Shown piece after piece: positions 45,936-51,530 of a DNA stretch of 64,000 bases. This DNA is from Hyalangium ruber (GTDB taxonomy: Bacteria > Myxococcota > Myxococcia > Myxococcales > Myxococcaceae): assembly GCF_034259325.1 (NCBI RefSeq), contig NZ_JAXIVS010000029.1, forward strand, positions 1 to 64,000, given 5' to 3'. Position 1 is the first letter of the stretch, and every line of letters starts with the position of its first letter. The notes beneath the pieces are model-generated. The model saw only the letters and a program-made list of their open reading frames with translations, had not been told where the DNA came from and ran no database searches. The translations under genes were made by a program, and so were the position numbers.

Positions 45936-47174
45936 GTGCCCGCCCTCCGTCTGCCGCGTCTCTCTTCGCTTCGAGCCTTTGAACACCCCGGTTATCTCCC
46001 GGTGTGGACGGGCTCCCTGGTGTCCAACATCGGCACTTGGATGGAGGCCGTTGCCCTCGGGGTGTACGTCACCGAGGTGACGGGCCGGGCCGAGTGGACC
46101 GGTGGCGTGGCGGCGCTCTCCTATCTCCCCGGCCTCGTCCTCTCTCCGCTGGGTGGGGCGCTGGCGGACCGCTTCGATCGGCGCACCTATCTGGCGCTGG
46201 GCGCCGTGGGCCAGTTGCTGCTGGCCATCCTGCTCACGGTGCTCGCCTTCACCCACCAGCTCAGCGTGCCGGTGGTGGCCATCGTCGCCTTCCTCAATGG
46301 CTGCATCGGCCAGCTCACCGGCCCCGCCTTCTCGGCGCTGCTGGCCGAGCTCGTCCCGCCCCGGGATTTGCACAGCGCCCTGAGCCTCAGCTCCGCCCAG
46401 TTCAACCTCGGGCGCGTGCTGGGCCCGCTGGCGGCCGCCGCCATGCTGGCCTCGGGCGGCATCGCCTGGACGCTGCTCATCAACGCCCTGTCCTTCCTGG
46501 CGGTGCTGGTCGCCCTGTCCCGCGTGCGCACGCAGCCCCCCAGCTCCAGCAAGCTGTCCGTGCCGGGCCTGGTGGAGGACATCGGCCGAGGCATGAAGGC
46601 GGCGCACCAGGACGCGGGCATCAGCCTGATGCTGATCAGCACCCTGGTCGTCGCGGTATTGATTGCCCCCTTCATCGGCCTGGTGCCGGTGTTCGCCATC
46701 CGCGTCTTCGGACAGGGCGCCTCGGCCACCTCCATGCTCGTCACCTGCCAGGGCGCCGGCGCGGTGCTGGCCGCGGTGGGCGGGGGCGTGCTGGTGGATG
46801 CCTTCGGCCGCAAGCGCGTGCTGGAGGGAGTGCTGCTCGCCCTGGGCCCCATCACCGCGCTCTACTGGCTCGCGCCGTCCCTGCCGCTGGCCGGCGTGGG
46901 CATCTTCCTGCTCGGCGCCGGCTACATGCTCTGCCTCACCGGCGTCCACACCACCGTCCAGTCGCGCGCGCCTCGGGAGATGCAGGCGCGCATCAGCAGC
47001 CTCTACAGCATGCTGCTCAGCGGCGGTTATGCCCTGGGCGTGTGGCTGCAGGGCGCGCTGGCCGACCGCCTGGGGGTGCGCTTCATCACCGTGTCGGCCA
47101 GCATCTTCTTCCTGGCGCTGGTGCTCAGCCTGCGCCTGCTGCGCCCGCGCATCTTCGACGCCACCGAGGCGTGA
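45936..47174 (+). CDS. Major facilitator superfamily transporter
   Basis: 412 aa, about 12 transmembrane helices; proton-driven export of small molecules is typical. The GTG at 45936 is chosen for AAGGA 10 bases upstream and for placing the first helix normally; an in-frame GTG at 45879 would add a non-hydrophobic stretch. Features: loop 2-3 motif GGALADRFDRRTYL, a second-half equivalent VDAFGRKRVLEGV, and ALADRLGVRF. The pattern fits the MFS_3/enterobactin-exporter-like group. No regulator adjacent. AT-rich hairpins follow its stop. Confidence 0.88.
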   Translation: MPALRLPRLSSLRAFEHPGYLPVWTGSLVSNIGTWMEAVALGVYVTEVTGRAEWTGGVAALSYLPGLVLSPLGGALADRFDRRTYLALGAVGQLLLAILLTVLAFTHQLSVPVVAIVAFLNGCIGQLTGPAFSALLAELVPPRDLHSALSLSSAQFNLGRVLGPLAAAAMLASGGIAWTLLINALSFLAVLVALSRVRTQPPSSSKLSVPGLVEDIGRGMKAAHQDAGISLMLISTLVVAVLIAPFIGLVPVFAIRVFGQGASATSMLVTCQGAGAVLAAVGGGVLVDAFGRKRVLEGVLLALGPITALYWLAPSLPLAGVGIFLLGAGYMLCLTGVHTTVQSRAPREMQARISSLYSMLLSGGYALGVWLQGALADRLGVRFITVSASIFFLALVLSLRLLRPRIFDATEA

Positions 47175-47334: not shown

Positions 47335-47366
47335 GGGGCAATCTGCCCCGTGGGGCACAATGCCCC
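47335..47366. promoter_or_regulatory. Tandem 15-bp palindromes GGGGCA-N3-TGCCCC
   Basis: Two perfect copies: 47335-47349 (spacer ATC) and 47352-47366 (spacer CAA), start to start 17 bases apart. The design fits two dimers of a regulator side by side. It sits 150 bases upstream of the DUF3592 gene start. Confidence 0.6.
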
Positions 47367-47516
47367 GTCCAGGCAGACCCCCCGAGGCGCTGCTCCCAGC
47401 GCGCGGGAGAGGTGGCGCAGGGTGTGCATCCGCCTTGGCCCGGGTGGGGTGTTTCCCCGCCGTGCCTCCTCCCCCTCTCCCCCGAGCTGTCGCAGGCGAA
47501 GCTCCGAGGTTCCTGG

Positions 47517-48038
47517 ATGAAAAGCGTGCTGCTGGGGCTGGCCATGCTGGTGTTCGGTGGCGCCCTCGCCTTCGGCGGCGGGAGGACGCTCTACCGGGCC
47601 CATGCCAGCCGGAGCTGGCCCGTCGTGGAGGGCAGCGTGGTCTCCTCCGTCGTGGAGACGGTGCGCAACAAGCGCGCGGTGAGCTTCCAGCCCCATGTGC
47701 GCTACCGCTACACCGTGGACGGGGCGAGCTACACCTCCGAGAACATCTCCTTTGGAGGAGGCGCCGCGGGCGAAACCCTGGAAGAGGCCAACGCCTTCGT
47801 GCGGCGGCTGCCGGAGGGGGCCCCGGTGCAGCTGCACTACGCGCCGGGGGATGCCTCGCTGGTGTGCCTGGACTGCCAGCGGGTGTCGCTCGCCGACTAT
47901 GGCGTCACCGGAGGCGGGGCGGTGCTGGTGGGGCTGGCGGTGCTGAGCCTCGTGGAGACGGCGCGCTTCGAGCTGCGCATGCGGCGCCTGGAGCACCGGG
48001 CCTCGCTGGCGGGCGGTCCTGGTCGGCGCGCCTCCTAG
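47517..48038 (+). CDS. DUF3592 membrane protein
   Basis: 173 aa. ATG at 47517; GAGGTTCCTGG precedes. An N-terminal helix (SVLLGLAMLVFGGALAFGGG) and a second near the end (GGAVLVGLAVLSLVETA) bracket an extracytoplasmic beta domain with the DUF3592 pattern: SWPVVEGSVVSS, VRYRYTVDGASYTSENISFGG, EGAPVQLHYAPGDAS and CLDCQRVS. Function of the family is unknown. The tandem palindrome upstream suggests tight regulation. Confidence 0.78.
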   Translation: MKSVLLGLAMLVFGGALAFGGGRTLYRAHASRSWPVVEGSVVSSVVETVRNKRAVSFQPHVRYRYTVDGASYTSENISFGGGAAGETLEEANAFVRRLPEGAPVQLHYAPGDASLVCLDCQRVSLADYGVTGGGAVLVGLAVLSLVETARFELRMRRLEHRASLAGGPGRRAS

Positions 48039-49633
48039 GGTTGGGGGTCGAGCGCCCGAGCGCAGCCCGCGGCTCCCCGTGGCCACGCCAGGCACGGGAG
48101 CCGGGCGTGTGTCCCCCGCCGCTCCGTCCCCAGCTTTCCCGTATCTCCGGCCACCGCGTCCGCCCATCCTCCAAGGCCCCGTGAAGCTCGCGCGCAAAAT
48201 CACCTTCGCCCTCACCCTGCTGGCCATCCTCATCATCACCGTGCTGGAGACCTTGGAGGTCCGCCGGGAGCTGGAGCACTCGGCGCTCGACATGCGGCAT
48301 GACCATCGCCTGCTGGGCCACATGGTCGCCGGCTCGCTGAGCCGGGCGTGGATGCAGCTGGGCGAGGGCGAGGCGCTGACCCGGCTGGACCAGGCCAACC
48401 GCTTCCAGGAGCAGGTGCGCATGCGCTGGGTGTGGCTCGATGGCACCCCGCGCAGCCCTCCCTCCACGCCCATCTCCACGGAGCTGCTCGACACGCTGCG
48501 CCAAGGCCAGGACGGCTCGGTGGTGGATGAGGCGACGAAGCCGGGAGTGCTGCGCTCCTACACCCCTGTCTTCATCAAGGGCCAGCTGGGCGCCATCGAA
48601 ATCTCCGAGTCCCTGGCCCGGGAGCGCCAGCACGTGCAGCACACGGTGCAGAGCGCGGCCATCGGCACCCTGGCGCTGGCCATCACCTTCCTGGTGGTCG
48701 CCATGGCCATGGGGCGGAAGCTGGTGGGCTACCCGGTGCAGCGGCTGGTGGAGCTGGCCCACGCCATGGGCGAGGGGCGCCTGGAGACGCGGGTGGAGCT
48801 GCGGCAGAACGACGAGCTGGAGACGCTGGCCACGGCGATGAACCGCATGGGAGAGCTGCTGCTGCGCGCCCGGGAGACCATCGCCGCGGAGACGGCGGGG
48901 CGCCTGTCCACCCTCGAGCACCTGCGCCACGCGGACCGGCTCACCACCGTGGGCAAGCTGGCCTCGGGCGTCGCCCACGAGCTGGGCACTCCGCTCAACG
49001 TGGTGCTGGGCCGGGCGAAGATGATCTCCTCGGGTGAGGCGGAGGGCGAGGAGGTGGGCGAGAGCGCCCGCATCATCTCCCAGCAGGCGCAGCACATGAC
49101 GCGCATCATCCGCCAGCTGTTGGACTTCGCGCGGCGCCGCACCCCGCAGCGGGCGCCGGAGGACCTGTCGCAGCTGGTCACCCGCACCCTGAGCCTGCTG
49201 CGCCCGCTGGCCGCCAAGAAGCGGGTGACGCTGGTGTCCGAGGTGCCCGAGTCCCTGGTGCTGGAGGTGGACGCGGGCCAGCTCCAGCAGGTGCTCACCA
49301 ACCTGGTGATGAATGGCATCCAGGCGGCCGAGTACCCCGGCACCTTGAGGGTGCGCGCCCGGCCGGAGCGGGCCCTGCCGCCGACGGACGTGGGCGGGCC
49401 CGAGGCGGACTGGCTCCGGGTGGACGTGGAGGATGAGGGCAAGGGCATCCCCGCCGAAGTCATGCCCCACATCTTCGAGCCCTTCTTCACCACCAAGGAC
49501 GTGGGCGAGGGCACCGGGCTGGGGCTGGCCGTCTCCTACGGGCTCGTGAGGGACCACGGGGGGTGGATCTCCGCGCGCAGCGAGCCGGAGCGAGGTACCT
49601 GCTTCTCCATCTACCTGCCGCGAGGAGGCGCCG

Positions 49634-51007
<1,374 letters not shown>

Positions 51008-51086
51008 GGCCGTGGCATGGGAAGTGCTCCTCGCATGCGGGCAGGCCGCCGCGATGGCTTGCCTGCTGCCCAGACAGGAGGAGCGA

Positions 51087-51530
51087 ATGAACCCCGAAGA
51101 GACGGAGGCCGGACCCTGTCCGAAGGGACAGGGGGCAGAGTCCCGGGAACGCTGCGTCCTCGTGGCGGAGGATGATCCGGAGATGCGGCGCCTGGTGTGC
51201 CGGGCCTTGCGCCGGGCCGGCTATCGCGTTGTCGAGGTGGAGGATGGGCGCGCGCTGGTGAACGCGCTGATCCGCTGCGTGAAGGACACGCCCGAGCAGC
51301 TGCCGGATCTGATCATCAGCGACGTGCGGATGCCGGGCTGCACGGGGCTGGAGGTGCTGGCGCGCATGCGGCGCGTGGAGTGGACCACCCCCGTCATCCT
51401 CATCACCGCCTTCGGGGACATGGAGACGCACGACGAGGCGCACCGGCTCGGCGCCGCGCGGGTGCTGGACAAGCCATTCGACGTGGATGAGCTGTGCTCG
51501 GCCGCGCGCACGCTCGTGCCAACGTCCTGA
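51087..51530 (+). CDS. Single-domain response regulator (CheY/Spo0F type)
   Basis: 147 aa. ATG at 51087 follows AGGAGGAGCGA; the open frame above it lacks a receiver pattern. Receiver only: EDD acidic pair at ~28-30 (VLVAEDDPEM), phospho-Asp79 (LIISDVRMPG), Thr in ILITAFGD and Lys in VLDKPFD. No output domain. It follows the sigma-54 activator by 79 bases, so it may share the phosphorelay with the histidine kinase, as sink or intermediate. Confidence 0.88.
   Translation: MNPEETEAGPCPKGQGAESRERCVLVAEDDPEMRRLVCRALRRAGYRVVEVEDGRALVNALIRCVKDTPEQLPDLIISDVRMPGCTGLEVLARMRRVEWTTPVILITAFGDMETHDEAHRLGAARVLDKPFDVDELCSAARTLVPTS

Follow-up and report, generated by a model that had tools for sequence, protein, structure and literature searches.

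Myxobacteria possess very many sigma-54 activators, few of which have a known site, and 53 enhancer-binding proteins (EBPs) are counted for Myxococcus xanthus in PMC9765219. The described systems closest to the locus presented below come from this species. NmpR resembles our locus in having dyads with a GCA...TGC core arranged in pairs ahead of a −24/−12 element (PMC11841059, PMC6211767), in the autoregulation of an operon that encodes a bacterial EBP (bEBP), and in its origin from the same bacterial order. Nla28S/Nla28 combines a membrane kinase with a bEBP in an autoregulated, sigma-54-dependent two-gene operon (PMC9765219, PMC7910581); the half-site of Nla28 is given as CT[C/G]CG[C/G]AG, and the nla28 promoter carries TGGAGCG-N4-CTGCT (PMC9765219). 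In HsfBA, the likeness lies in an NtrC-like regulator with a binding box in promoters (PMC9109919).

The window analyzed here comprises 64,000 nucleotides of the genome of Hyalangium ruber, and its gene order around the element of interest is MFS transporter (ending at 47174), palindromes, DUF3592, kinase, NtrC-type bEBP, and single receiver. Two copies of GGGGCA-N3-TGCCCC with perfect arms, a distal one (GGGGCAATCTGCCCC, 47335-47349) and a proximal one (GGGGCACAATGCCCC, 47352-47366), both without strand, are separated by the spacer GT and start 17 bp apart. An earlier note, made from the letters of this DNA, had described two perfect 15-bp palindromes at a 17-base repeat, near but not exactly at 1.5 helical turns, upstream of a DUF3592 gene; direct reading confirmed the coordinates, 17 bp corresponds to 1.6 turns at 10.5 bp per turn, and the gene begins with an ATG at 47517. 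A predicted sigma-54 promoter of the form GG-N10-GC (TGGCGCAGGGTGTGCA, 47413-47428, plus strand) begins 47 bp past the proximal copy and was found again by a pattern search of the genome; its score of 12.1 marks a weak match to the weight matrix applied, whose consensus agrees with the one printed in PMC9765219. Transcription would start near 47439, placing the centers of the two palindromes at about −97 and −80.

The first gene of the predicted operon (47517-48038, plus strand) encodes a DUF3592 protein of 173 amino acids (PF12158, E = 4.2e-13). It is followed on the same strand by a sensor histidine kinase (48181-49665) with an N-terminal Cache/PAS-like sensor, HAMP, HisKA, and HATPase_c (from Pfam, AlphaFold, and Foldseek); by an NtrC-type enhancer-binding protein (49634-51007) with receiver, sigma-54 AAA+ domain, and Fis-type HTH (Pfam Response_reg, Sigma54_activat, and HTH_8); and by a single-domain response regulator (51012-51530; Response_reg, E = 1.5e-26), which in several relatives has its own sites and its own promoter upstream. 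Three features of an upstream activating sequence (UAS) of a bEBP are present in the window: two dyads upstream of a −24/−12 element, a GG-N10-GC motif close downstream, although a weak match, and an activator with a sigma-54 AAA+ domain (PF00158, E = 3.1e-70) and a Fis-type HTH (PF02954, E = 2.1e-14). The loop of this activator reads GAFTDA, a variant of GAFTGA. Our reading, to which we assign a probability of roughly 0.87, is that the tandem palindromes act as the enhancer of a sigma-54 promoter, are bound by the NtrC-type activator of the same operon, and drive both this operon and a SulP-DabA-DabB operon elsewhere in the genome. Sequence, rarity, pairing, conservation, promoter placement, linkage of kinase and activator, and recurrence before DUF3592 elsewhere were computed directly.

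The window contains exactly these two perfect matches; at up to two mismatches it holds 15, compared to 13.45 ± 4.15 in shuffles, and loose copies are therefore regarded as background. The earlier note had proposed a genome search for further copies, and in the whole genome (10,772,960 bases, 43 contigs) there are indeed four perfect copies, arranged as two pairs, with none for the reversed control. Base composition predicts some 6.4 single copies in 10.77 Mb but no more than about 8e-5 pairs with a gap of 0 to 20, and it is therefore the pairing, not the single palindrome, that exceeds chance. A chance cluster or a dispersed repeat of the REP or MITE type might be invoked because the number of single copies is close to the compositional expectation (4 compared to about 6.4). 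However, this explanation is already contradicted, and its remaining probability is negligible: close pairs are expected at 8e-5 per genome and occupy just two loci in this one, N3 and spacer vary among copies while the arms are kept, and exact tandem pairs (gap 0 to 20) occur in 35 of 96 genomes of the family. In a phylum sample of 195 genomes, the same 35 carried an exact pair, compared to 0 of 99 outside the family, and the reversed control gave 0 in all. A perfect single copy was present in 29 of 60 genomes, the own genome included. In the 4.6-Mb genome of a member of another family (G054, contig C1), we observed ten perfect single palindromes. In nine of them the middle reads GCA or the complementary TGC, and three are spaced at a period of 160 bases; they look like a different repeat.

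The second perfect pair of the H. ruber genome lies on contig C14 (51051 and 51081, 30 bp apart), upstream of a −24/−12 element (TGGCACATGGATTGCT) that scores 19.1 and faces a gene for a SulP-family transporter. The next genes encode DabA (PF10070, E = 2.8e-258) and a DabB-like Proton_antipo_M protein. Hence, both pairs of this genome have a −24/−12 element downstream at a UAS-like distance (12.1 in the window, 19.1 before SulP). A genome search with a partly relaxed palindrome plus the −24/−12 pattern returned both pair loci and two other places, and with the other half of the palindrome relaxed, it returned the two pair loci only; the reversed control was 0 in both searches.

To what extent palindromes and sigma-54 elements go together was surveyed in 62 sources (window, L005, and L045-L104), which hold 77 of the 85 perfect sites of the first family sample plus the own genome; the sites absent from it are one each in G003, G006, G020, G031, and G033 and three in G008. 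A further 15 sites fell in genomes of other families, beyond the reach of this survey. Strong −24/−12 elements (score of at least 14.5) numbered 25 in 54,502 strand-positions within 200 bp of perfect palindromes and 13 in 1,092,990 strand-positions elsewhere, a 38.6-fold enrichment from sources that are not independent, because several of the genomes are close relatives. The sites formed 65 clusters, 24 with a second copy (up to two mismatches) and 41 lone. An element of at least 14.5 accompanied 18 of the 24 clusters with a second copy, and one of about 11.9 or more accompanied 23 of them, compared to 3 of the 41 lone copies at either level. A rough composition-based script placed 27 of the 41 lone copies inside called frames; its coding calls are weak evidence, since the paired sites of the window and of L005 came out as lying in frames, too. 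Given these 27 copies and the 3 with a −24/−12 element, lone copies were handled as mostly due to chance. Single palindromes were also rejected as a marker of the regulon, on account of the copies in called frames and of 78 one-mismatch palindromes in the own genome compared to 27 for the reversed control.

The position of the sites relative to the promoters also bears on the question of what kind of element they form. Each copy could give a 6-bp stem with a 3-base loop, and the MFS gene ends at 47174, so the element could conceivably close the upstream MFS transcript with a pair of RNA hairpins (a terminator, an attenuator, or a processing signal). Yet no T run follows the element, it is found in front of other genes as well, and its position goes with that of −24/−12 elements in either direction; we give the hairpins next to no credence. 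An operator for a repressor (a TetR/MarR-like dimer) that sterically blocks DUF3592 is very improbable as well: a perfect short dyad is in general typical of dimeric repressors, but both copies lie clear of the promoter, stopping 47 and 64 bp short of the −24 box, no repressor gene was a constant neighbor among the annotated neighbors of the loci annotated, and in some relatives the pair sits between two divergent −24/−12 elements. The latter arrangement, one pair between two divergent strong elements, was observed in L045, L050, L055, L101, and L143 (and in L135, which is the same genome as L045), and a pair so placed may be a shared two-way enhancer.

A lack of conservation would, according to the earlier note, have spoken against its proposal, but the sites are kept across this family of social soil bacteria. 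Matches to the kinase at E ≤ 1e-80 were found in 69 of 92 family genomes. For the close orthologues (at least 57% identity, n = 59, including the window), 1300 bp upstream were scanned, a tandem arrangement being two copies with up to two mismatches, one of them with at most one; in G064, which has three kinase matches, the best one alone was scored. A perfect site was found upstream of 53 of the 59, a tandem arrangement likewise of 53, and either of 54, while the reversed motif gave no perfect match at all and a match within one mismatch upstream of a single orthologue. The periods were 17 (5 cases), 18 (10), 19 (28, the mode), 20 (9), and 21 (1), and the exact helical phase is therefore not conserved. 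Exact pairs occurred in 35 of the 59 genomes with a close kinase orthologue and in 0 of the 33 without, a count that is confounded by phylogeny. Among 10 weaker kinase homologues, one (G018) had a perfect site, located 79 bp ahead of a kinase of 46% identity, with no bEBP found in the stretch examined, and none had the tandem. Named orthologues include those of M. xanthus AM003 (L136), Citreicoccus inhibens (L135), and Hyalangium versicolor (L143); in M. xanthus AM003, two perfect sites 20 bp apart are followed by TGGCACAGTGGGTGCT and then the kinase. L135, L137, L138, and L143 are not extra evidence, since they are the same genomes as G016, G101, G034, and G089, respectively. L137 (BNCN01000015.1, 209416 bases) is titled Comamonas sp. 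KCTC 72670 but carries the myxobacterial kinase operon; its genome, G101, belongs to the family of the window, and the label is probably wrong.

The five close orthologues that lack a site in the 1300 bp scanned (G014, G029, G085, G086, and G087) all belong to one genus, g15, of which another member, G089, has the pair before its kinase. G014, G029, G085, and G086 have an exact pair and a strong −24/−12 element before a SulP gene, with DabA next to it in three of them (the stretch of G085 ends too soon); G087 has no exact pair. The SulP-side pair of G086 lies about 8.5 kb from the kinase, and in this genome (L236, 2046-12036) kinase, bEBP, single receiver, and the SulP-DabA-DabB operon with its pair lie within 10 kb. 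SulP-DabAB of g15 is only 34 to 40% identical to that encoded on C14 of the window's genome; it is as if two different SulP-DabAB operons had come under the same site.

DUF3592 is one conserved target, but no partner accompanies the sites as constantly as the kinase-bEBP operon. This constancy bears on the possibility that another bEBP of the same genome binds the palindromes and that the kinase-activator operon is only one of its targets in a cascade. Such cascades, in which one activator drives the operon of another, are described for the Nla proteins of M. xanthus (PMC9765219, PMC7910581), and the H. ruber genome has 55 bEBP-like matches, the activator included, of which the nearest paralogue is 61% identical. 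Nevertheless, we consider another bEBP unlikely as the binder, in view of the 54 of 59 kinase orthologues with sites, the absence of exact pairs from all 33 genomes that have no close kinase orthologue, and the HTH of the paralogues, the best of which matched that of the activator at 26 of 39 positions among the 28 of 29 fetched loci where it aligned (the 25 weakest of the 55 matches were outside this comparison). The 61%-identical paralogue (C4:728433-729770, L273) has a different HTH, and no perfect palindrome is found there.

Genomes with tandem sites have VGGSRTLAARILGVDRKTLYRKL or a close variant of it as the HTH of the same-operon activator, and genus g16, where the kinase is distant and tandem sites are absent, has an HTH that is VGGHRTQAAKILGLDRKTLYRKL-like. 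The HTH end, DRKTLYRKL, is common to the g16 homologues, which lack the sites, and the co-variation is therefore partial and supporting, not decisive; it also follows phylogeny, and relatives are not independent samples. Judged from sequence, the regulator of the palindromes is very probably the bEBP encoded two genes further along, which would act back on the operon that encodes it. The earlier note had called the element a candidate operator for an unknown regulator. Conservation, rarity, and a constant position in front of the promoters of a recurrent gene set strongly support a site for a regulatory protein. The wording was right in kind but too vague, since the placement is that of sigma-54 promoter enhancers rather than of an operator for a repressor, and we are fairly confident in identifying the regulator as the NtrC-type bEBP (49634-51007) of the same predicted operon.

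How the switch might be operated can be outlined as follows. The membrane kinase would phosphorylate the activator, dimers of which would bind the two 15-bp dyads and assemble into an AAA+ oligomer that opens sigma-54 RNA polymerase at 47413-47428. The DUF3592-kinase-activator-receiver operon would then be transcribed, amounting to positive autoregulation, and from the second pair on C14, the same activator would drive SulP-DabA-DabB. Binding by the same-operon activator, phosphorylation, the oligomer, the sign of regulation, and the extent of the operon are steps that we infer. An AlphaFold model of kinase residues 1-230, built from an 11-sequence alignment, had a mean pLDDT of 73, with residues 31-150 mostly at 80 to 91 by blocks, and resembled in Foldseek the Cache/PAS-like extracellular domain of WalK (best match 9a5d, an integrative model, E = 5e-7; crystal structure 4ywz, E = 9e-4 and TM 0.55 by target); the match to CitA was weaker (E = 0.02). 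The two long helices that flank the sensor in the model are presumably membrane helices, and the predicted targets suggest envelope, acid, or inorganic-carbon stress as the signal.

DUF3592 was matched at E ≤ 1e-20 in 29 of 92 genomes (30 loci). In the 28 genomes other than that of the window, it lies on a contig other than that of the kinase or megabases away, a split between contigs being no proof of distance in drafts. At least two sites (up to two mismatches) were present in the 450 bp upstream of 28 of the 30 loci (27 of 29 without the window), and 27 of 30 (26 of 29) had a −24/−12 element of at least 11 between the sites and DUF3592. Neither sites nor promoter were found in the 450 bp upstream at L244 and L271, and at L243 sites are present with no −24/−12 element between them and the gene. 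In 27 of the 29 other loci the sites are kept although DUF3592 is no close neighbor of the kinase there; the site thus goes with the gene and not with its surroundings. The window is the place where two targets, DUF3592 and the kinase operon, came together.

Other candidate targets were predicted from placement behind paired sites alone. They are MprF (L047; NF033480, above its cut-off), the single receiver (L045, L065, and L076), SulP-DabA (L005 and L058), a DegP/HtrA-type protease (L051 and L085, with a weak −24/−12 element of 11.8 to 11.9), a glutamine cyclotransferase (in L140 behind the receiver), and a multihaem-cytochrome/TPR protein (480 to 490 bp from its promoter in L099 and L101, behind the receiver in L065). 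Two further places were observed: in L096, an MprF-like LPG synthase gene lies behind a lone site with a strong −24/−12 element, and in L083 (3999-6453, G028), a palindrome, a second copy with two mismatches, and a strong −24/−12 element precede a gene with a Schlafen group 3 helicase domain. The targets could belong to a sigma-54 regulon not described before, which would extend across the family of Myxococcus relatives and have tandem GGGGCA-N3-TGCCCC enhancers as its hallmark. A kinase with an extracytoplasmic sensor and its activator would control their own expression (in several genera through a single enhancer shared by two divergent sigma-54 promoters) and join envelope defense (MprF, DegP/HtrA-type protease, and DUF3592) to inorganic-carbon uptake (two distantly related SulP-DabA operons); for this broader proposal we see the odds as evenly balanced. 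If it is true, DUF3592 gains a regulatory context, with membrane charge, acid, or low CO2 as the kind of signal predicted. On our reading of the locus, one activator without a described role gains a precise DNA code that can be put to the test, together with a loop of autoregulation and a short list of targets. This extends to M. xanthus, a species amenable to genetics, and an uncharacterized domain (DUF3592) and a CO2/bicarbonate uptake system are placed under the same switch.

A literature search with the exact motif strings found no paper, and term searches found none recognizable as this system; these searches reached few subscription papers, and novelty is therefore not proven. Among curated families, AtoC, NtrC, and ZraR (NCBIfam) have the same three-domain architecture as the activator, which stays below their cut-offs (472 of 714 bits for AtoC, 435 of 559 for NtrC, and 395 of 760 for ZraR). 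ZraSR is an envelope-stress pair.

Against the M. xanthus systems, the comparison is as follows. The NmpR site is GCGCA-N5-TGCGC (PMC11841059) and differs by eye from GGGGCA-N3-TGCCCC in both arms and inner spacing; its copies lie 14 to 15 bp apart, compared to a gap of mostly 2 to 5 bp here, and NmpR is served by an NmpU-NmpS relay and has other targets, in contrast to the single HAMP kinase of our locus. Membership in the NmpR regulon was rejected, as the sites of the window do not fit GCGCA-N5-TGCGC. The Nla28 regulon was rejected as well: by eye, and by the sites printed in Table 1 of PMC9765219, L136 has neither the tandem CT[C/G]CG[C/G]AG half-sites nor the letters of the nla28 promoter. 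Unlike that promoter, this M. xanthus AM003 copy of the kinase operon combines TGGCACAGTGGGTGCT with two perfect GGGGCA-N3-TGCCCC sites. HsfB is described as a hybrid kinase (PMC9109919), whereas the kinase here is HAMP-HisKA-HATPase_c with no receiver, and HsfBA was set aside on kinase architecture. In sum, the locus has the layout of NtrC-type enhancers and would represent a kind of switch that is already known.
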